A stretch of 64,000 nucleotides of DNA from a virus. This document shows, one piece after another, positions 1,389-53,760 of the stretch; position 1 is the first letter of the stretch, and every line of letters starts with the position of its first letter. The notes beneath the pieces were generated by a model, which made no database searches, was not told the DNA's origin, and was given only the letters and a program-made list of their open reading frames with translations. Location: the IMG/VR virus record IMGVR_UViG_3300046656_000199, positions 1 to 64,000 of that record. The stretch is one strand, 5' to 3'. The translations under genes and the position numbers were made by a program.

Positions 1389-1883
1389 ATGTTCCGCATC
1401 AAGAGACTGAAGAGGCCGCCGCAGGAACGCATGCCGGACGGCACCCTGTCGCCGCAGATGCCGGCCGCCGTCGCCTACGCCGCCAGTGCCGCCCCGGAGG
1501 GCAACGTCACCGGCTGGACGAAGGACGTTGCCAAAGCCGGCGCCTTCACCGCGGAGATGATGGCGGACATCCGGGCGCATTACGCGAACCGCGCCAACAC
1601 CGGCACGCTGGAGATTGAAGGCGTTGACGCCTCCGTCGCGGTTCCACCGACCGGGCACGAAGCCGAGATGAGCAAGGCGAAGGCGGCAATGGCCTCGGCG
1701 TCCGCGCGGATCGGCGAGCTGGAAACCCTGCTGGCGACCCGTGCCAACGCCGAGGAGCAACTGGCCGCCTCTGTGCGGCGCAACGGCGAACTGGCCGCCC
1801 GCGTCGCCGAACTGGAACAGCGCCTCGCCCCGACGGAAGAGCCGAAGGACGCCCCGGCGCCTGCGCCCGCCAAGAAGAAGTGA
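1389..1883 (+). CDS. Small coiled-coil protein in capsid module
   Basis: 164 residues from ATG 1389 (a GTG at 1386 is an alternative). The N-terminal 30 residues are basic. The C-terminal half is a long heptad-like helix (IGELETLL, NGELAARVAELEQRL) ending in an Ala/Pro/Lys tail. Position between decoration and major capsid genes suggests a capsid-associated or assembly factor. No family recognised. Confidence 0.6.
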   Translation: MFRIKRLKRPPQERMPDGTLSPQMPAAVAYAASAAPEGNVTGWTKDVAKAGAFTAEMMADIRAHYANRANTGTLEIEGVDASVAVPPTGHEAEMSKAKAAMASASARIGELETLLATRANAEEQLAASVRRNGELAARVAELEQRLAPTEEPKDAPAPAPAKKK

Positions 1884-20370: not shown

Positions 20371-23300
20371 ATGGCCGGAGAAATCTACGGGACGGTTAGC
20401 TGGCCGGGCGTCGTCTCCATCCAGGGGGCGACCACGACCATGTCGCACGGCATCACGCCGAGCGTCACCGTGCTGCGATGCAATCCGCAGACGCCGGACG
20501 TCGTCGTCGCTCAGTACGGCAACCTCGTCTACACCGACGAGCAGGGCACGGCGGTCGTGCTGTATGACTGCCGGCTACGCAATGCTCGTGCCCACAAGGA
20601 CGAGCAGGGCGAGTGGCTGCTGCTGGAGATTGAAGACCGTCGCTGGCGCTGGTCGCTGGGCTGGGTGGACGGCGTCTTCAATACGGTCGACCCGAGCGGC
20701 GGGTACTTCGGTCCGCTCAATCCCAACGCCGGGCCGCGACTAGCGCCGGCGAAGAAGTACCTACCGTGGAGTCTGCAACGCCCCGGCGACCTGTGCAAGA
20801 TCCTGCTCGATAGGATGCAGGAAGTCGGCTACACCATCATCATTCCCAACGACGAACTACCGCCCGTGTCGTGGGATCACGCGAATCCCGCCCAGATGCT
20901 TCAGCAGCTCGCCGAGGCGTTCGGCTGCCGCATCGTCCTGCGCCACGACTCCAACACGGTGGCCATCGTCCCCGTCGGCATCGGCGACACGCTGCCGGAC
21001 GGGAGCATCCAGAAGGATAGCCTCGTCCTACCCAAACTCGGACGGCCCGACTCGATCCTGTGCGTCGGCGACATCACGCGCTACCAACTCCGCATGCAGT
21101 TACAGGCCGTCGGCGAGGATTGGGACGGGATGCTGCGGCCGATCGACAATCTGTCCTATGCGCCGCCCGGTGGCAAGGTGCGCCAGCTCGTCGAGTTCGA
21201 CCCGGCGACGGTGAGCATCGGCAAGGTGTTCACGCTCATCCTCGACGGGATCGCTGTCTCGTTCACGGCCACGGCGGGCACGGTGGCCAACGTCACGGCG
21301 GGCCTGGCCGCGGCGGTTAACGCCAACGCTCAATTGGCTGCCCTCAAGATCACGGCTTTCGACGGTGCCAGCATTTTCACGGGTGTCAACGGCAACCCCA
21401 ATGGCGACCCGTTCACCTACATTGCCGCGGCGACGGCGCCGGCCCGGCTGACGCCCAACTTGAAGAAGGCGCCGAAGAAAGGATCGTGGGACAACGACAT
21501 CCCGCCCGTGTTCGCCAACGTGGTAGCGACCGATCGGCTGACCAGGCTGGAAGCGCTGCAACTCGCTCGAAAGAGCGTGTTCAAGTATTACCGCGTCGTG
21601 TTGCAGGATCCCACCGACGCCACCATTCCGCTGAACATTCCCGGCTTCGGACGGATTCTCCGCAAGGAACAACTGATCCTGCAATCGGAGCAGGTGTTGC
21701 AGATCGTGCCGACGAAGCAGGACGACAACGTCATTGACCAGTTCGACGGCTCGACGTTGACGCTCGACTTTTACAACGGGTACGCCAGGAATAGGCCCGC
21801 GAAGGTTTACGGTTCCTACTTCTGGCCGACGACCGGCGTGGTCCGCGTGGCGGGCCTGGAGATCACCAAACCAAACGAAGAAGTGCGCGTGCCGTTCAGC
21901 ATCGACGCAGCGCGGCATTTGGTCACATTTTCGGATCACGTCTTCAGTCTGGAAAATCCGGGCGGCACCATCTTGCAGCAGTTGGAAGCGGCGGCCACGG
22001 CATCGACGGGCATCATCAGCGCGTCGAGCCTCGTCCTTGAAACCGCCGTGCAGGTCCGCGACCCCATCAATCATCAGGTAGTGCGTGCCGAAGAGGTCTA
22101 CATCTTCCCCGGCGCGCAGGCGGGAACGGCGCCCTTGATAATCAAACACGACGACGTGCAGGTGAATTACATCACCATCTACGACCCCACGAAGATCGCC
22201 AAGCCGCTCGCCACCGTCAACGACCTGCCGGACGCCAAGAAGCGGGCACGGTTCTATCTGCTGCTGGAGGCGTCGAAGTACGATCAGACTCGCCTAGGCC
22301 GTGAGCGGATCTACAACGGCTTGGTTCCCGTCGTCATGGACGGGGCCATTCAGCAAGTGACGTGGACGCGCGATGAAAACGGCATCGAGACGCGGGCCAG
22401 CCTGAACAGCGAACACGACCTGTACGTCCCGCAGTTCCCGTTGCGTCTGCAACTGGAGTACCTCAAGGCATTGCAGAAGGCCGCCGTGGCCACGCAGACA
22501 AACCCCGAGGCGGCGGGCGAATCCATCGGCGACATCCTCGCTGCCGGTGGCGAGGTCAAAGGGTGGTTCGAGCGGGCACCCAAGGGCACGGCCGACCGTT
22601 CGCCGCTCTACGATGCCGTGCGCTGGATCGCCGTCCGCAACACGGGCACCGATCCGATTCCGGCCTACGGACTCGTGACCCTGACGGGACAGGACACGGA
22701 CGGCGTTGCCACGGCCACGGCGCCAACGCTGGACTCGCAGCCGCGACTGTTCGTCAACGGTCCGGTCGATATTCCGGGCGGCAGTCGGGGTCAGGTTCAC
22801 CGCTCCTTTCCCGCCGCGGTGCTGTACGACGTCAACGACGGCACGCCCGCCTTCGGCGCGGCGTGGGGTAGCAAGGCGGGCACGTTCACGCTGACGAAAG
22901 ACAACGGCGGCTTTCGCATCCTCGGTGCGCCGGATGCTGGCATCGTCAACGTCGAAGAGGACACGGAAGGCAGCGACACCGACGCCAGCCACACGAACAG
23001 CGGCGACGTCAACCTGTCGCATCAGTATCTCGGGGCCGGCAGCAAGGGTGTCGATGCTCTGGTGATCGGCGTTGATGACAATTCCTTCATCGACCCGCCG
23101 GGCAATCTCTGGATCAACTGCGAGGGTGTCGGAGGCATCGAGTTTGGCTCTGACTCCACGTTTGACGCCAGCGGTGCCATCCTCTACATCCCAACGACCA
23201 CTACTTCGATCGCGACCGGTGATGACATTATTGCGATTCGATCAGCCAATGACGGTACGGCATCATGGCGAACCGACACCGGCTACTCAATCTGGGTACT

Positions 23301-46926: not shown

Positions 46927-47121
46927 ATGTGGCCGTGCCGCATCGAGGGCAACGCCGTCGTGTCGCTGGCGGGCGAGGTATCGCGGGCCGTGCGGCTGGT
47001 GATCGGCACGGACGATGCGCTGAAGAGTCTTCAGGTGCGCCTGCTGAAGATGGGATACTACAAGGTCGAGACGCGGGAAGGAATTCGGAGCAACCGAGAT
47101 GGACAACCCGATGCGATCTGA
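46927..47121 (+). CDS. Small hypothetical protein
   Basis: 64 residues from ATG 46927, five bases after the previous stop. MWPCRIEGNAVVSLAGEVSRA, then DDALKSLQVRLLKMGYYKVE; alpha/beta. Last gene before the structured leader at 47132. Confidence 0.5.
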   Translation: MWPCRIEGNAVVSLAGEVSRAVRLVIGTDDALKSLQVRLLKMGYYKVETREGIRSNRDGQPDAI

Positions 47122-47131
47122 TAAATTGAGC

Positions 47132-47197
47132 GTGCCCGAACAGGTGCTATCAACACCTGACGGGCACTACACAACAACCCTGGTAAGAGGGTGCGTC
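47132..47197 (+). ncRNA. Two-hairpin leader RNA, copy A
   Basis: Hairpin I: basal stem GTGCCCG/CGGGCAC (47132-47138/47161-47167), apical stem AGGTG/CACCT with loop CTATCAA. A CA-rich linker follows. Hairpin II: ACCCT/AGGGT (47177-47181/47188-47192), loop GGTAAG, masks the AGGG ribosome site of the ATG at 47198. The same architecture with changed base pairs stands at 53164-53226. Confidence 0.55.
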
Positions 47198-47275
47198 ATG
47201 TCTCAACAGTCTACCAATCCGCTTTCCGTCCGCAAGCCCGCACTCCTCGCCAAGAGGAGTACCCATGTTCTTTGA
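47198..47275 (+). CDS. 25-residue ORF behind leader copy A
   Basis: ATG 47198, seven bases after AGGG, ending inside the start of the membrane gene at 47265. MSQQSTNPLSVRKPALLAKR. It may be a leader peptide, or the remnant of a gene that once followed this leader as the HNH gene does at 53233. Confidence 0.35.
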   Translation: MSQQSTNPLSVRKPALLAKRSTHVL

Positions 47276-47483
47276 ATCGTTCAAGTGGGCTACCGCCGTC
47301 CTGTCCCTCGTCGGCGTGGTCCTCAATATCCATCGCAAGCGTGCGTGCTTCCTCGTCTGGGCGTTCACGAATTCGGCGTGGACCGCCATCGACGTCTATC
47401 ACGGCGTATGGGCACAGGCTGCCCTGCAAGCGGTGTACGTCGGGCTGGCGATCTACGGATTGCGGAAGTGGAGGGTGGCATGA
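47265..47483 (+). CDS. Small multi-pass membrane protein (PnuC-like fragment)
   Basis: 72 residues from ATG 47265 (AAGAGGAGTACCC). Three hydrophobic stretches (WATAVLSLVGVVLN, CFLVWAFTNSAWTAI, AALQAVYVGLAIYG). The pattern of W/N/Y positions (FTNSAWTAIDVYHG, LAIYGLRKW) recalls half of a nicotinamide-riboside transporter PnuC-type repeat; short phage proteins of this type are known. Function unproven. Confidence 0.5.
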   Translation: MFFESFKWATAVLSLVGVVLNIHRKRACFLVWAFTNSAWTAIDVYHGVWAQAALQAVYVGLAIYGLRKWRVA

Positions 47484-48961
47484 TCGTCAACCTCGACACA
47501 GACCGCCTCGAGGACTATCGGATCTTCCTGCGCATCAAGGCGCTGCCACGCTACCGCTTTATCGGCCACACGGCCGAGTTCCCCGACGAGTACGCCAGCC
47601 TCGTGGGAATGGATGCGCCGGCGACAGCGGACGGAGCCTACAGGCCGATTCAACGCCTGTTCGACTACCAGTCAGCCGTCTCAAAGCTGGCCATCCGCAA
47701 GCGCAAGTTTGCGGCCTTCATCGAGCCGGGGTATGGCAAGACGCTCATCGGCGCCGAGTTCGCCCGCCACTCGCTCGACGTCTTGCCGCGCAACCGCTGC
47801 GCCCTGTGGCTGTCTCCGCTCATGGTGGTACGCCAGACGATTGCCGAACTGCGCCGGTTCTACGACGAGGATCTGCCCATCGTACAGGTGCCGTCGAAGG
47901 ACTTGCAACGGTGGCTGGACAGCGGCGATGAGCGTTTCGGCATCACCAACTACGAGGCACTGACCGAGGATATTCGGCCGGGACGTCTCGGCTCCATCGT
48001 GGCCGACGAATCGAGCATCATGAAGTCGTCCTACGGCGTCTGGGGTCAGAACCTCATCGAGTTGGGACGCGGCATTCCCTGGAAACTGTGCCTGACCGGA
48101 ACGCCGGCACCGAATGACCGCATCGAGTACGCCAGCCATGCCGTGTTCCTCGATCAGTACCCCACGACGAACGCTTTCCTCGCTCGCTTTTTCGTCAACC
48201 GTGGCCAGACGAACGAGCGATGGGAGTTGAAGTCTCACGCTTTGCGGCCGTTCTATACCAGTCTGTCCCACTGGTGCTTCTTCATGACCAACCCGTCCAC
48301 CTACGGCTTCAAGGACAACGCCGGCACCATCCCGCCGATTCACGTCCACATTCACGATGTTGACCTGACCGAAGAGCAACGCGAGCGCGTGTGCGAGGCA
48401 GGAGGGAATATGTTCGGCCTGCCCGGAGGCATCACGTCGCGCGGCAAGCTGTCGCAACTGGCCAAGGGGCGATATCAGGGAAAGGCGGTGGCGACCAACA
48501 AGCCGGAATACATCCGCGCTCTGGTTCATTCGTGGCCCGACGAATCAACGCTGGTGTGGTGCATCTACAACCCGGAACAGGAGTCGATGGAACGAATGTT
48601 TCCCGAGGCGGGTAGCATCAGCGGCGACACGCCCTACGACGAACGAGAACGCATCATCGAGGACTTTCAGGCCGCCCGCACCCGCACGCTCATCAGCAAG
48701 GCCAAGGTTCTCGGCTTCGGACTCAATCTTCAGGTGGCGACTCGGCAAGTGTTCTCCGGACTCGTGGACAGCTACGAATCCTACTTCCAGTGCGTGAAGC
48801 GCAGCAACCGCGTCGGCTCGACGAAGCCTCTTAACGTCCATCTATCAGTTACCCCGATCGAACACGCCATGATCGACACGGTGCTGGCCAAGGCTAACCG
48901 CGTCGAGGCAGATACCCGCGAACAAGAGCGCATCTTCAAGGAGGTGGGCATTGGCTTCTGA
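47480..48961 (+). CDS. SNF2-type DNA helicase
   Basis: 493 residues from ATG 47480 (ATGA overlap with the membrane gene). Helicase superfamily 2 motifs: FDYQ (Q motif), EPGYGKT Walker A near residue 85, ITNYEAL, VADESS as DEAD-box variant, CLTGTPAPN (motif III), and the C-terminal RecA block ending FQCVKRSNRVGS (motif VI). Phage members of this group unwind or remodel DNA during replication and recombination. Overlaps the methyltransferase gene by 11 bases. Confidence 0.85.
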   Translation: MIVNLDTDRLEDYRIFLRIKALPRYRFIGHTAEFPDEYASLVGMDAPATADGAYRPIQRLFDYQSAVSKLAIRKRKFAAFIEPGYGKTLIGAEFARHSLDVLPRNRCALWLSPLMVVRQTIAELRRFYDEDLPIVQVPSKDLQRWLDSGDERFGITNYEALTEDIRPGRLGSIVADESSIMKSSYGVWGQNLIELGRGIPWKLCLTGTPAPNDRIEYASHAVFLDQYPTTNAFLARFFVNRGQTNERWELKSHALRPFYTSLSHWCFFMTNPSTYGFKDNAGTIPPIHVHIHDVDLTEEQRERVCEAGGNMFGLPGGITSRGKLSQLAKGRYQGKAVATNKPEYIRALVHSWPDESTLVWCIYNPEQESMERMFPEAGSISGDTPYDERERIIEDFQAARTRTLISKAKVLGFGLNLQVATRQVFSGLVDSYESYFQCVKRSNRVGSTKPLNVHLSVTPIEHAMIDTVLAKANRVEADTREQERIFKEVGIGF

Positions 48962-49889
48962 ACTGTTCAGCATTGCACGTTCCCTGATCGGCGACAAGAA
49001 CTACGAACTGGTTCACGGCGACTGTATCGAACACATGGCGACCATGCCGACGCAATCCGTTGACCTGGCGGTATTCTCGCCTCCGTTCCCGGCCCTGTAC
49101 GCATACACATCTGACAATGCGGACATCGGCAACAGCGAGGACTTGCAGGCCGAGGCGCCGCTGCATCTGGGATTCTTCTACTCCCAGATTGCCCGTATCT
49201 TGAAGCCCGGTCGCGTCATGGTCGTTCACGTCGCGCAGATCCCGCGCATGGCCCGTGCCGGTGGCCGCGGCCTGCACGACTTCCGCGGCCTCAACATTCG
49301 CCTCGGCGAACGGGCTGGCCTGACGTTCGAGTACGATTGGGTGATCCGCAAGAACCCCCAGGCCCAGGCCATTCGCGGCAAGGCGTGGGAGTTGAAGTTC
49401 CAGGGCGTCGAGACGGATCGTTCCATGAGTCGCGGTGCCCTGCCCGATTACCTGCTCAAGTTCCGGGCGCCGGGAGAGAACACGGTCCCTGTCGACTCCG
49501 AGGGGGAAGTGTCGCGCAACGACTGGATCAGGTGGGCCGAGTGTTGCTGGTCGGACATCAAAGAAACCGAAACACTCAACGGCGAGCGGGGCAAGAAAGC
49601 GGCCCGCGGCGACGACGACACCAAGCACATTTGCCCGCTGCAGCTTGAGGTCATCCGGCGCATCGTTCTGCTCTACACCAACCCCGGCGAACTGGTGTTC
49701 TCGCCCTTCGCCGGGATTGCCAGCGAGGGGTATGTGTCGATCCGGCATGGTCGCCAGTTCTACGGCATCGAGTTGAAGAAGGAGTATCACGACGAGGCAT
49801 TGCGGAACCTGAAGCGAGCCGTGCGAGATTATCAGGAGTCGCAGCGAAGTCTGTTCTCGGCGCTCAACGGAAAGGGGGTGAATCCATGA
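48951..49889 (+). CDS. DNA methyltransferase, N4-cytosine/N6-adenine (beta-group type)
   Basis: 312 residues from TTG 48951 (AAGGAGGTGGGCA upstream). Catalytic motif SPPF (residues 43-46) comes before the SAM site, FSPFAGIASEGYVSIRHGR followed by FYGIELKKEYHDEA, the order of beta-class enzymes; SPP(F/Y) favours N4-cytosine. Between them is a target-recognition region of about 150 residues. No cognate restriction gene is visible, so it probably protects phage DNA. Confidence 0.8.
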   Translation: MASELFSIARSLIGDKNYELVHGDCIEHMATMPTQSVDLAVFSPPFPALYAYTSDNADIGNSEDLQAEAPLHLGFFYSQIARILKPGRVMVVHVAQIPRMARAGGRGLHDFRGLNIRLGERAGLTFEYDWVIRKNPQAQAIRGKAWELKFQGVETDRSMSRGALPDYLLKFRAPGENTVPVDSEGEVSRNDWIRWAECCWSDIKETETLNGERGKKAARGDDDTKHICPLQLEVIRRIVLLYTNPGELVFSPFAGIASEGYVSIRHGRQFYGIELKKEYHDEALRNLKRAVRDYQESQRSLFSALNGKGVNP

Positions 49890-50146
49890 GGACGGCACGC
49901 TACCGACCACTGACCGCCGCTCCGCAATCGTGGCTGGACGCCATCGGTCGACGCATCGAGGACGAACGCCGTCGCCTGCGTCTGTCGCAGTGTGGCCTTG
50001 CCGAGCGAGTGGGTTGCTGTGCGGCCTTCGTCATGCGAATGGAGATGGGTCGGCAACAGCCGTCCGCCCACATGCTGATGCGCGTAGCGAAGGCTCTCGG
50101 CGTGTCGGCGGACTACCTGCTCGGCATTGTCCTGACGGAGTCGTGA
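49886..50146 (+). CDS. Xre-type HTH regulator
   Basis: 86 residues from ATG 49886 (AAAGGGGGTGAATCC; ATGA overlap). Classic five-helix HTH: IEDERRRLRLSQCGLAERVG, AAFVMRMEMGRQQPS, LMRVAKALGVSADYLLG. Could regulate early or late genes. Confidence 0.75.
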   Translation: MRTARYRPLTAAPQSWLDAIGRRIEDERRRLRLSQCGLAERVGCCAAFVMRMEMGRQQPSAHMLMRVAKALGVSADYLLGIVLTES

Positions 50147-50147
50147 C

Positions 50148-50534
50148 ATGATCCTCGACCCGGACACCACGCGCAAATGCCTCGCCCTGGCCGGCGCCCC
50201 ACCGTTCCCGGCCCCGCCGCTGGACTGCTCCGAGCGGGAGTTCATGGCTGCCGTGATTGCGTTGGCACGGTCGTGCGGCTGGGTTGTCGCGCATTTCAGG
50301 CCAGCACGGACGGCTACCGGCTGGCGGACGCCCGTAGCCGCCAATGGCAAGGGCTTCGTCGATCTGGTGCTGGCCCGCTACTGCCTCCTGTACGTCGAGC
50401 TGAAGACGGAGAAGGGTACGCTGAGCAAGGATCAAAAGAAGTGGCGGGATGCCATCCTGTACGCCGGTGGCGACTGGCGGTTGTGGCGGCCGCGGGACTG
50501 GAGCGATATCGAGCGAACCCTGAGAGGAGAGTGA
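50148..50534 (+). CDS. VRR-NUC domain nuclease
   Basis: 128 residues from ATG 50148. Core GKGFVDLVLA (Asp72), LYVELKTEKG (Glu84-x-Lys86), LSKDQKKW (Gln96) and GGDWRLWRPRDW fit VRR-NUC, a PD-(D/E)XK type often paired with SNF2 helicases in phages, as here. Probably cuts structured DNA. Confidence 0.8.
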   Translation: MILDPDTTRKCLALAGAPPFPAPPLDCSEREFMAAVIALARSCGWVVAHFRPARTATGWRTPVAANGKGFVDLVLARYCLLYVELKTEKGTLSKDQKKWRDAILYAGGDWRLWRPRDWSDIERTLRGE

Positions 50535-50537
50535 GCG

Positions 50538-50789
50538 ATGAGTTGCCCGACGTGTGGACACACCATGCACGGCATCGGCGACGTACCAGCCGTGGGTGGT
50601 CGACCTACTTTCTGGTGTCCGCGATGCGGAACCATTCAGACCGCCAACGATCTACCCGAGGCGCCCAAGCTCGTGGAGCGCTGTCGGCTGTTCGCCTTGG
50701 CCGGCGCCAATGGTGGGGCGAACCGAGACATTTGGCAACGCCTCGGTATCGCCGAAGCCATCTATCCGCACGAGGATCGCAAGACGTGA
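50538..50789 (+). CDS. Zinc-ribbon protein
   Basis: 83 residues from ATG 50538 (GAGAGGAGAGTGAGCG). CPTCGH near the start and CPRCGT at 27-32 form a zinc ribbon; the rest is helical. Function unknown. Confidence 0.6.
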   Translation: MSCPTCGHTMHGIGDVPAVGGRPTFWCPRCGTIQTANDLPEAPKLVERCRLFALAGANGGANRDIWQRLGIAEAIYPHEDRKT

Positions 50790-50959
50790 GCGCCCTCTTC
50801 AACGCCATCTGCTCACACTGCGGTCAGCAACGCCCCCGCTGTGCCACGGTTACGCTTATCCGCGATCACCGGTCGATCCGGGCGGTGCTGTGCGAGGTCT
50901 GCCGCAAGGTGCTGGCAGGGGAATACCGGCTAGTCACCGAACACAAGGGGAAGAAATGA
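50786..50959 (+). CDS. Small zinc-finger protein
   Basis: 57 residues from GTG 50786 (GTGA overlap). CSHCGQQRPRC and CEVCRKVL pairs suggest one zinc site between short strands. Overlaps the next ATG. Confidence 0.55.
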   Translation: MSALFNAICSHCGQQRPRCATVTLIRDHRSIRAVLCEVCRKVLAGEYRLVTEHKGKK

Positions 50960-51201
50960 TCTGCCGCGTCAAGCCTCTGGAGTGGAACAAGGTCGCCAAC
51001 CGTAACTGGTGGACAGCCCCCACGATCTTCGGCGATATTAGCGTCGAGATGGATGATGAAGTCTGTCACTGGCGTTACTGCTTCGACGAATTCTACGACG
51101 AAGCCAGCCACGAGTGCGAATCCATCGAGGCCGGCAAGGAAGAGGCCGAGAAGTTCTATCTGAGCAGACTGTTACCTGCTCTGGAAGTGCAAAGTCCGTG
51201 A
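50956..51201 (+). CDS. Hypothetical protein
   Basis: 81 residues from ATG 50956 (GGGGAAGAA; ATGA overlap). MICRVKPLEWNKVANRNWWTA followed by an acidic, YCFDEFYDEA part; this 'KPLEW' opening is common in phage proteins of unknown function. Confidence 0.6.
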   Translation: MICRVKPLEWNKVANRNWWTAPTIFGDISVEMDDEVCHWRYCFDEFYDEASHECESIEAGKEEAEKFYLSRLLPALEVQSP

Positions 51202-51229
51202 TCCGAAACTGTCCAGGGAGGGGCGACAC

Positions 51230-51451
51230 ATGCGACGTACCAAAACCGGCAAGCCGATCAAGCCCCGGCCGCCGACGCTACGCAGCCGAATGCTCGACGT
51301 GGTGCTGACGCTCGGCTCGGCGATGGGCCTGCTGCGGACGATGTACGCCGAGGCGCTGGCGGGCAAGGCCGTCTCGCCGGACCTGCTGATCCTGTGGCAA
51401 CGGCAACTGCTGGTCCTCGACCGACGGGCGAACGAGGTGACGGGAGAGTGA
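51230..51451 (+). CDS. Small basic hypothetical protein
   Basis: 73 residues from ATG 51230 (CAGGGAGGGGCGACAC). Basic start (RRTKTGKPIKPRPPTLRSR) then hydrophobic helix (MLDVVLTLGSAMGLLRTMYAEAL). Unknown function. Confidence 0.55.
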   Translation: MRRTKTGKPIKPRPPTLRSRMLDVVLTLGSAMGLLRTMYAEALAGKAVSPDLLILWQRQLLVLDRRANEVTGE

Positions 51452-51452
51452 T

Positions 51453-51989
51453 GTGGGCAAGACCATCCCTGTATCCGCACTACGTCTGAGATACCGCAAG
51501 GACATTCAGGACGCCCTTGATGCGCTTCCGAACGGTTCTACCTTGCAGGCGATGGCCGATGCGTGCCGCAAGCTGATGCCGCGCAGAACGTACTGGAACA
51601 GCACGATCGAGATAGATGACACGACGTTCTCCAAGGAACGCCTGAACGCCTGGCGCGCTGAGCGTGAGCGTGCGTTGCGACAATTCCGTGCCGGCAGGTA
51701 CAGCGAAGCGAAGATCGTCCTTGATTATCGTCGCTGGTGGTTGCAAGTGGCGTGCGGATTCTGCGACCAAAAGAGTAGCCGTCAGGGTCATACCATCGGC
51801 TGCATCCTGTGCTGTCACCTGACCGAACGCATCAAGGATCTCGTCGCCACGTCCGCGTGGCAGGAGATCCGGAAACATCTGCGCGAAGGAATGCCACCGG
51901 CCATCGCTGCGGATCGGCTGGAGGAGATTGTGCCGTCCGAGGTGTACGACACGGCCAATAAAGTGGCTGATTTATTGAGGGCGATCTGA
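51453..51989 (+). CDS. Hypothetical protein with Cys motif
   Basis: 178 residues from GTG 51453 (GGGAGAGTGAT upstream). Helical, basic; contains CGFCDQ and CILCCH about 16 residues apart, a possible zinc site, and repeated WRAERERALRQFRAG. Ends overlapping the next gene. Confidence 0.55.
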   Translation: MGKTIPVSALRLRYRKDIQDALDALPNGSTLQAMADACRKLMPRRTYWNSTIEIDDTTFSKERLNAWRAERERALRQFRAGRYSEAKIVLDYRRWWLQVACGFCDQKSSRQGHTIGCILCCHLTERIKDLVATSAWQEIRKHLREGMPPAIAADRLEEIVPSEVYDTANKVADLLRAI

Positions 51990-52468
51990 TGGAATTCCAC
52001 GCTGAACTGCTCGATCACGGTCTGATCGACCCGGCCTGGGAATACTGGATGCCCGATCCAGATATTGCGGAATTGATCGAAGAGTCTTCGGGAACGAAGG
52101 CGGACCAGGCCGACGAACTGTTCAGGCATTCGGTCGGCATCCACTTCGGGAACGGCAACCCCAACCGAGGGCAGCGAACAAGGCTTGCCGCCAGCAAGCC
52201 GGTCAAAGACTCGCCGCCTGAACGTGGGCCTGCCAACTGCAATGGCTGTCACAAAGTTTTCATGCCCAAACGATCCGAGCAGGTCTACTGCTGCTCAGCC
52301 TGCCAACCGCGCGCCGGAAGGCCGAGGACGAGGATTGACGGAAGGTTGCCACAAGCGAAGGTATGCCCGGAGTGCGCGGGCGAATTCTTTCCGTGGCGTC
52401 CGCAACAGGTTTGCTGCGGCAAGCGATGCAGCGCGAAGAGAGGGCGCCGAATTAAGGGGAAGGCATGA
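51989..52468 (+). CDS. Protein with two zinc ribbons
   Basis: 159 residues from ATG 51989 (TGATG overlap). N-terminal acidic domain (DPDIAELIEESSGTKADQADE). Then two similar fingers, CNGCHKVFMPKRSEQVYC-type and CPECAGEFFPWRPQQVCC-type, each followed by basic residues, as in DNA-binding fingers. Overlaps the next gene by ATGA. Confidence 0.6.
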   Translation: MEFHAELLDHGLIDPAWEYWMPDPDIAELIEESSGTKADQADELFRHSVGIHFGNGNPNRGQRTRLAASKPVKDSPPERGPANCNGCHKVFMPKRSEQVYCCSACQPRAGRPRTRIDGRLPQAKVCPECAGEFFPWRPQQVCCGKRCSAKRGRRIKGKA

Positions 52469-53109
52469 CTGAAGCTGAGTGGTTGGCGGCTGCGGACCCG
52501 TTGCCGATGATGCGGCATCTCCGAACGTCGGAGCATGAGGACCGCTGGCATTCCCGCTGTACCAAGTGGAAACTGCGCTGCTTCGCCGAGGCATTGCTGG
52601 GGCTGATACGCTGTGGGGCATACGGAAAACACGTCGGCCCAGACCTTGAAGAGTGCGTCTGGCATCTCATCAAAGACTGCACCGGCTTCAACGGTTTCAA
52701 CGGTTTCACGCAGCACCCCAAGCCCGCCGCTGCCGCCCTCCTGCGTGACATCGTAGGCAACCCATGGGCGCCGCTGCGACTGCCTAACGGATCACCGATC
52801 CCGTGCAGACGATGCGAAGGTGACGGGTGGGTGTGCCTCGACGACGGTTGGGGGGCAAGAGGCACCTGTAAAGTGTGCAACGGCAAAGGGCATCTCAATA
52901 TGTTTCTGCCGTGCCCGTGGCTCACACCGCAAGTCCTCGCCATCGCTCAGTCGATCTACGAGCAACGGACGTTCGGCGACACGCCGATCCTCGCGGATGC
53001 TCTGGAGGACGCGGGGGCTGATACTGCTGATTTGCTCGACCATCTACGAAGCGACAGGATTCATGTCAGAGGATGTTGGGCAATCGACCTGATTCTCGGA
53101 AAATCCTAG
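52465..53109 (+). CDS. Planctomycete TEAEWLA-type protein with DnaJ-like zinc insert
   Basis: 214 residues from ATG 52465. MTEAEWLAAADPLPMMRHL and LRCFAEALLGL match the opening of a protein family expanded in Gemmata-type genomes, and LTPQVLAIAQSIYEQRTFGD ... PILADALEDAGADTADLLDH ... RGCWAIDLILGKS matches its closing block. In between is CRRCEGDGW ... CKVCNGKGH, two C-x-x-C-x-G-x-G-like units as in the DnaJ zinc domain. Probably taken from the host; function unknown. Confidence 0.75.
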   Translation: MTEAEWLAAADPLPMMRHLRTSEHEDRWHSRCTKWKLRCFAEALLGLIRCGAYGKHVGPDLEECVWHLIKDCTGFNGFNGFTQHPKPAAAALLRDIVGNPWAPLRLPNGSPIPCRRCEGDGWVCLDDGWGARGTCKVCNGKGHLNMFLPCPWLTPQVLAIAQSIYEQRTFGDTPILADALEDAGADTADLLDHLRSDRIHVRGCWAIDLILGKS

Positions 53110-53163
53110 ATTTCAGGATGATTTTGTGGAATCTATCCGATGGTTGCGCATCTAACATACAGC

Positions 53164-53232
53164 GGGTCGGAAGGTGCTGATAACACCATTCCGACCCTGA
53201 CCACAACCAACTCCTTGATAGAGGAGCAAGTC
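53164..53232 (+). ncRNA. Two-hairpin leader RNA, copy B
   Basis: Hairpin I: GGGTCGGAA/TTCCGACCC (53164-53172/53189-53197) with apical GGTG/CACC and loop CTGATAA. CA-rich linker. Hairpin II: CTCCT/AGGAG (53211-53215/53222-53226), loop TGATAG, masks the ribosome site of the HNH gene. Matches copy A at 47132 in order and loop sizes, with different paired bases. Confidence 0.6.
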
Positions 53233-53760
53233 ATGGCTGCTGAACAGGATAATCGCCGGCTGCCGTTCTTTCAACCTCTCGCTGAAAACGACACCCTTCA
53301 GACCGCATTCCTTCTTTATCGGCTCGCGGACAAGGTGGAAGTTTCGGATGATGGCTGCTGGATCTGGACTGGTTTCCGCAATGCGGACGGCTACGGATCG
53401 GCTTCAAACGGGCATTCGAGAACCGAAAATGTGCATCGGATAATCTATCGGATGTGCGTCGGTCCCACACGTCCTGGGGATGAGGTCTGTCACACCTGCG
53501 ACAACCCTCCATGTGTCAATCCGAAACATCTCTTTATCGGCACCCACGCCGATAACATGCGGGACGCTGCCCGCAAGGGCAGAATCAAGTCGCGAGACAG
53601 TAGCGGAGAAAAGAACCCATCGGCCAAACTGGACACGTTAAAGGTCAAGGCGATTCGAGAGCGTCACGCAAGCGGAGAACGGTCGATCGTTCTCGCGACA
53701 GAGTTCGGCGTCAGTCAGGCAACGATCTGCCGTATTCTTCGAGGGGCTACTTGGAGATGA
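53233..53760 (+). CDS. HNH homing endonuclease (Cys-rich type) with HTH tail
   Basis: 175 residues from ATG 53233. WIWTGFRNADGYG opens the domain; HRIIYRM (His68) and CHTCDNPPCVNPKHLFIGTH (85-104) form the zinc-supported HNH core with THADNMRD. A C-terminal HTH (IRERHASGERSIVLATEFG) gives specificity. Typical free-standing homing gene between early and late regions; its translation may be controlled by leader copy B. Confidence 0.85.
   Translation: MAAEQDNRRLPFFQPLAENDTLQTAFLLYRLADKVEVSDDGCWIWTGFRNADGYGSASNGHSRTENVHRIIYRMCVGPTRPGDEVCHTCDNPPCVNPKHLFIGTHADNMRDAARKGRIKSRDSSGEKNPSAKLDTLKVKAIRERHASGERSIVLATEFGVSQATICRILRGATWR

Follow-up and report, generated by a model that had tools for sequence, protein, structure and literature searches.

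The virus record IMGVR_UViG_3300046656_000199 (64,003 bases), of which we analyzed positions 1 to 64,000 (64,000 nucleotides, nt; the window), contains two copies, A and B, of a two-hairpin element placed directly upstream of a 25-codon open reading frame (ORF) and an HNH endonuclease gene, respectively. Our analysis indicates that both elements are very probably cis-encoded antisense RNA genes of the type of SymR, RepX, and FinP, which lie on the minus strand and repress the gene downstream. Homology, the selected strand, promoter position, fold, and gene neighbors were computed; transcription, the RNA ends, duplex formation, and repression are proposed by analogy with SymR, RepX, and FinP.

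An earlier note on this DNA had described the two sites as a leader RNA, in two copies, that masks ribosome-binding sites. Every feature of the shared architecture is found where the note had placed it: hairpin II covers the ribosome-binding sites of two genes, and the HNH gene follows one copy and the 25-codon ORF the other. The leader-RNA reading holds insofar as the element is conserved, covaries, and lies over ribosome-binding sites; what changes is the strand, and hence the mechanism. The parts of the two copies are as follows.

47132-47138/47161-47167: copy A, hairpin I basal stem GTGCCCG/CGGGCAC, the 3' hairpin of the minus-strand RNA
47169..47176, minus strand: copy A, linker; pairs with 47194-47201 as helix P0 in the minus-strand fold
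47177-47192, minus strand: copy A, hairpin II, ACCCT-GGTAAG-AGGGT, upstream of the ATG at 47198
47132..47203, minus strand: copy A, antisense RNA of about 72 nt (predicted), beginning 5'-AGACAU and facing codon 2 of the 25-codon ORF
53164-53172/53189-53197: copy B, hairpin I basal stem GGGTCGGAA/TTCCGACCC, the 3' terminal hairpin on the minus strand
53200..53208, minus strand: copy B, linker; pairs with 53229-53237 (start-codon region) as helix P0 in the minus-strand fold, with covariation in the family
53211-53226, minus strand: copy B, hairpin II, CTCCT-TGATAG-AGGAG; covers the Shine-Dalgarno of the HNH gene, whose ATG is at 53233
53164..53238, minus strand: copy B, antisense RNA of about 75 nt (predicted), beginning 5'-AGCCAU and facing codon 2 of the HNH gene

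The apical part of hairpin I is AGGTGCTATCAACACCT in copy A and GGTGCTGATAACACC in copy B. The string GGTGNTNNNNACACC occurs twice in the whole 64,003-base record, both times at these copies, and its reversed control does not occur. Against dinucleotide shuffles, plus-strand folding gives z scores of -3.0 (copy A) and -5.3 (copy B). Both predicted antisense RNAs extend to the base of hairpin I at their 3' side, and the 5' end of the copy B RNA was placed by analogy to SymR.

Relatives of the element were collected from phages and bacteria. An IMG/VR search with GGTGCTNNNAACACC plus CACAAC gave 64 stretches, most of which have a GC-rich basal stem of variable sequence, an apical hairpin, TGACCACAAC or TAACCACAAC, then a further hairpin whose 3' arm contains the Shine-Dalgarno, and ATGGCT. 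A second search, which left the apical loop unconstrained and specified only linker and start (CCTGACCACAAC...ATGGCT), gave at least 119 stretches, with many different apical hairpins in the same frame. The apical motif of the earlier note is indeed present in both copies, but GGTGCTNNNAACACC is thus only one sub-type of apical loop. A resemblance to anticodon loops (CTNNNAA) was dropped because the loops vary when the search leaves them free. The search of bacterial genomes gave 57 stretches. After filtering, in which L003, L055, L099, L116, L133, L158, L183, L221, L229, and L231 were excluded as chance pattern matches, the working set comprised 131 phage and bacterial members, 94 of them non-redundant (less than 85% alike). 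The predicted RNA has a median length of 71 nt in the family. The note had also pointed out that basal stems of different sequence still pair, and this compensatory change is genuine and abundant across the family: pairing across the outer seven base pairs of hairpin I reaches 96% on the minus strand, compared to 55% when the arms are reshuffled.

The structure under selection lies on the minus strand. Among the interior non-Watson-Crick pairs of hairpin I in the 131 members, 83 are G-U on the minus strand and 10 on the plus strand (binomial p 2e-15), even though member collection tolerated plus-strand G-T and penalized A-C, a bias in the opposite direction. The asymmetry persists in the 94 non-redundant members (55 versus 9) and recurs in hairpin II (39 versus 7). 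The minus strand also folds more stably than the plus strand, at -43.6 versus -33.5 kcal/mol in copy B (two stems; z -6.69 for the minus strand) and -38.4 versus -32.0 kcal/mol over the predicted RNA of copy A (z -5.60). This advantage amounts to 6-10 kcal/mol in copies A and B, Escherichia coli, L046, and L050, and to about 4 in L235. On the minus strand, moreover, the start-codon region and the linker pair as helix P0, which extends hairpin II. A linker base is altered in 4 of the 131 members (L012, L026, E. coli, and copy A), and all four have a matching change at ATG(G)CT. Three of these changes give T-A and one A-T; the A-T case is copy A of the window, whose linker C-to-A change is compensated by G to T in ATG(G/T)CT. 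A U-turn (YUNR) in antisense loop II is slightly enriched (65 versus 49 of 126), and we did not use it as evidence.

The genes downstream gave the clue to the strand, since in bacteria they include SymE toxins, and the antisense RNA SymR controls their E. coli relative. In 94 of 130 members a minus-strand TAnnnT stands at position +12/+13 of the ORF downstream, compared to about 2.7 expected from codon shuffling, and it is seen alike among phage and bacterial members. A sense TAnnnT at -10/-11 upstream of hairpin I is present in only 16 of 80 phage members. The promoter-like sites in the window are the following.

53246..53251, minus strand: copy B, antisense -10 box TATCCT, at the family position +12/+13
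53269..53274, minus strand: copy B, antisense -35 box TTGAAA, spacer 17; -35 and -10 together match 9/12, a clear promoter
47208..47213, minus strand: copy A, antisense -10 box TAGACT, offset +10
47230..47235, minus strand: copy A, antisense -35 box TTGCGG, spacer 16, weak
47100..47127, plus strand: copy A, promoter-like site for sense transcription, TGGACA-16-TAAATT, -10 preceded by TG; 9/12, 0.1 expected

From the sense site of copy A the mRNA would begin near the hairpin I base, giving near-complete overlap of sense and antisense RNAs. We looked for a sense promoter at copy B and found none; sense transcription there is likely by read-through from upstream phage genes. The minus-strand G-U pairs, the helix between start codon and linker, and the promoter inside the ORF point to a minus-strand RNA as the selected product, and thus to a cis-antisense RNA gene rather than primarily a self-masking mRNA leader.

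Homology searches with an independent model connect the two copies to each other and to known antisense RNAs. We built a covariance model, R1, on the minus strand of 42 phage members from the second search, leaving out the window, E. coli, and every member found via the apical motif. Its input was a MAFFT alignment that resolves hairpin II poorly, so the stem statistics above were computed from landmarks. R1 retrieves copy B (53156-53238, minus strand, 58.1 bits, E 5.2e-13) and copy A (47124-47203, minus strand, 32.9 bits, E 1.2e-6) and nothing convincing in the rest of the window, where the next match (21265-21357, E 0.14) is without the two-hairpin architecture. That a model blind to the window retrieves both shows that the copies are homologs rather than a coincidence. 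Further homologs with covariation, which the earlier note had set as its test, do occur in phages. Of 94 genomes taken from the same class as an Erwinia-like member, roughly one in nine has a match at E 0.001 or better. A scan of the window with Rfam at gathering scores gave no match, nor did megablast of 24 kilobases (kb) against known phages; blastn of both leaders against known phages gave one weak partial match at best.

The note's statement that no described class has this layout does not hold, as SymR of E. coli, RepX of RSF1010 (the R1162 ctRNA), and FinP share it. All three are two-stem-loop RNAs of about 70-80 nt with a short spacer, and the window elements agree with them in this, in selection on the antisense strand, and in an antisense promoter within the target ORF. 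By sequence comparison, kinship with SymR is established. R1 matches E. coli SymR from the first base of its annotated 5' end (31 bits, E 3e-6), and the Rfam symR model in turn matches bacterial members at E 1e-6 to 1e-8 (41-51 bits, cut-off 61). SymR (RF01809), the antitoxin of symE, is annotated as a 77-nt RNA on the strand opposite symE. It agrees with the family in having two strong hairpins, a length of 72-77 nt, a start opposite codon 2, a -10 at position +13 of the target ORF, helix P0, the linker (AATCACAA / ACCACAAC), and an end at the hairpin I base, whereas its target is SymE and not an HNH gene or leader ORF. Silent CATTCT to CACTCC changes, at exactly the place of the minus-strand -10, abolish SymR, which can act in trans and mainly affects translation (PMC1891008).

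Kinship with RepX and FinP is likely from the same kind of comparison. R1 matches RepX of RSF1010 at 21 bits (E 0.001), and in the tra region of the F plasmid (traJ) its best match, with filters off, is FinP (19.5 bits, E 4e-4), which was located via Rfam. RepX (RF00043) has the same order of parts, with linker TAACCACCAAC and then ATGGCT in the Rfam consensus, and its matches with the family are reciprocal, weak, and near the detection limit; the Rfam symR and R1162 models match bacterial and phage members at scores under their cut-offs. RepX differs in controlling plasmid replication. It has been compared with FinP before and termed a FinP-like two-stem-loop RNA (PMC8136791). FinP (RF00107), which is antisense to traJ of the F plasmid, is 79 nt long, and the first of its two stem-loops lies over the ribosome-binding site. 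It differs from the family in having a U-tail and a chaperone, FinO; we found no ProQ/FinO-domain gene in the phage record.

We propose the following model for the two copies. A sigma-70-like promoter in the first codons of the downstream ORF would produce an RNA of about 75 nt that starts opposite codon 2. Its 5' half would form a long hairpin, P0 followed by hairpin II, covering the Shine-Dalgarno, the start codon, and the linker, and its 3' half would form hairpin I, which probably ends the RNA. Being fully complementary to the mRNA leader, the RNA would pair with it, probably loops first, and the duplex would block the ribosome-binding site, keeping translation low until sense transcription outruns antisense. 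In this way copy B would restrain the HNH homing endonuclease, and copy A would restrain the 25-codon leader ORF and, via translational coupling, the overlapping PnuC-like gene.

Several observations weigh against this model. The antisense promoter of copy A is weak, with its -10 at +10. No U-run follows hairpin I in copy A or B, as it would in an intrinsic terminator of the FinP type, so termination of the RNA is uncertain; E. coli SymR, however, also lacks a U-tail and ends at the hairpin base, so that a U-tail does not define the SymR branch. The matches to RepX and FinP are weak (21 and 19 bits), and the Rfam symR model (RF01809) does not reach the phage members, with both window copies unmatched. 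Finally, 37 loci were retrieved through protein similarity to the HNH enzyme, and in none does the RNA reach E <0.1. This indicates that the RNA is no constant companion of that HNH family and moves between genes.

The genes behind the two copies in the window are these.

53233..53760, plus strand: HNH homing-type endonuclease gene, target of copy B; Pfam HNH_3 1.7e-8, PHROG 1872 1.7e-31
47198..47275, plus strand: 25-codon ORF, direct target of copy A, probable leader peptide
47265..47483, plus strand: PnuC-like gene (C-terminal part of a nicotinamide mononucleotide transporter); Pfam 1.7e-9, PHROG 1880

The end of the 25-codon ORF overlaps the start of the PnuC-like gene. At least six other members (L009, L056, L122, L160, L211, and L238) also have a short first ORF that overlaps or nearly abuts the next gene, and by analogy with them the 25-codon ORF probably encodes a leader peptide through which translation is coupled to the PnuC-like gene. 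Coupling leader peptides of this kind resemble the leaders of plasmid copy control. Behind the phage elements, 24 of 80 ORFs are Pfam endonucleases of four fold classes (HNH types, GIY-YIG, one LAGLIDADG, and endonuclease VII), a share that comes from motif-seeded searches with no matched background, although the recurrence of unrelated folds stands. An integrase, a resolvase, a Rha regulator, and a Bro-N protein occur once each among the phage targets, and the rest are mostly small unknown ORFs. Behind the bacterial elements, SymE toxins are found in 10 of 44 cases.

This range of targets bears on whether the elements are strict type I toxin-antitoxin modules, in which the RNA counters a toxic product and the pair is maintained by addiction. 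SymE/SymR is annotated as type I and belongs to the same RNA family. The phage targets, however, are mostly homing endonucleases, recombinases, antirepressors, and unknown ORFs and not SymE; in the window, one copy precedes an HNH endonuclease gene and the other a leader ORF ahead of a PnuC-like gene, and we see no sign of addiction. We therefore consider this explanation unlikely.

Less likely still is the model of the earlier note, in which the plus-strand leader acts in cis alone, either because hairpin II hides the Shine-Dalgarno or because hairpin I senses a ligand or protein. The plus-strand leader does fold well, with hairpin II over the Shine-Dalgarno, and there is precedent in the hairpins of T4 and Aeh1 (I-TevI, segB, mobE), which sequester ribosome-binding sites and, as proposed for the family, keep phage homing endonucleases translationally silent, but do so from the plus strand, in cis, and without an antisense RNA (PMC2988022). 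Some self-masking is compatible with the antisense model as well, since an mRNA leader opposite such an RNA necessarily bears the complementary structure. The G-U pairs, in contrast, are specific to the minus strand and not to the mRNA strand as in the T4 type, helix P0 pairs well in the minus-strand RNA only, the TAnnnT conserved within the ORF would have no role, and the known RNAs that match, SymR and RepX, are antisense. Unlike a ligand pocket, the apical loops vary among members. Which strand carries the G-U pairs is thus a simple test for reading ‘leader hairpins’ correctly. We give almost no credence to the idea that the RNA serves the HNH protein as a guide or structural component, comparable to the omega RNA of IscB (HEARO), for although a structured RNA adjoins an HNH gene, the targets have unrelated folds (HNH, GIY-YIG, LAGLIDADG, SymE, integrase, Rha, Bro-N) and the RNA, at about 75 nt, lacks a variable end like that of a guide and has no HEARO match at the Rfam gathering score.

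Antisense RNAs of the SymR/RepX/FinP type are common in phages. We favor, with some reserve, the broader view that they form a large unrecognized phage branch serving as a portable silencing module before selfish or potentially harmful genes, by which we mean homing endonucleases of unrelated folds, recombinases, and antirepressors, so that one family would police plasmid copy number, conjugation, a toxin, and homing. SymR, RSF1010 RepX, and FinP, so far separate stories, would be joined with a large phage set, and R1 detects members that the Rfam symR model misses. The results suggest that many phage homing endonucleases are kept silent by a standard antisense cassette, a possible answer to how free-standing homing endonucleases spare their carriers. 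In the open-access literature we found no account of such an antisense RNA family at phage homing genes. The CfrI antisense RNA of cyanophage S-PM2 is likewise a phage antisense RNA adjoining a homing endonuclease gene, but it is linked to psbA, and its description is not that of a short RNA with two hairpins covering a ribosome-binding site (PMC12197685). We searched for relatives of this phage with an empty insertion site and found none.

Some further observations concern individual members. More than one copy of the element per genome is also seen in L222 (Cedecea), L223 (Candidatus Thiodiazotropha), and L237 and L270 (Pseudomonas aeruginosa PA7); in L222 and L223 the two copies are a few kb apart, each ahead of a SymE-like ORF. 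L134 (1416-1454) and L200 have nearly identical antisense elements and the same start of an HNH ORF, which meets an early stop in L134 and runs to 189 amino acids in L200. Small unknown bacterial ORFs beginning MADSxNSRT... and MASxIMAHPALARV... recur behind the element (L214, L245, L248, and L252 in Rhizobiales; L226, L240, and L265 in Steroidobacter and related), and the MASxIMAHPALARV... ORFs look like leader peptides ahead of a conserved MTRASREDMVVLSMGLN ORF. The phage contig L046, which has the element upstream of an HNH gene, also shows near-threshold Rfam matches to isrJ and int-alpA at 1444-1626 (minus strand). In the window, an SNF2/helicase-like gene (47480-48961) and, directly after it, a DNA N6/N4 methylase gene (48951-49889) lie just downstream of the PnuC-like gene.

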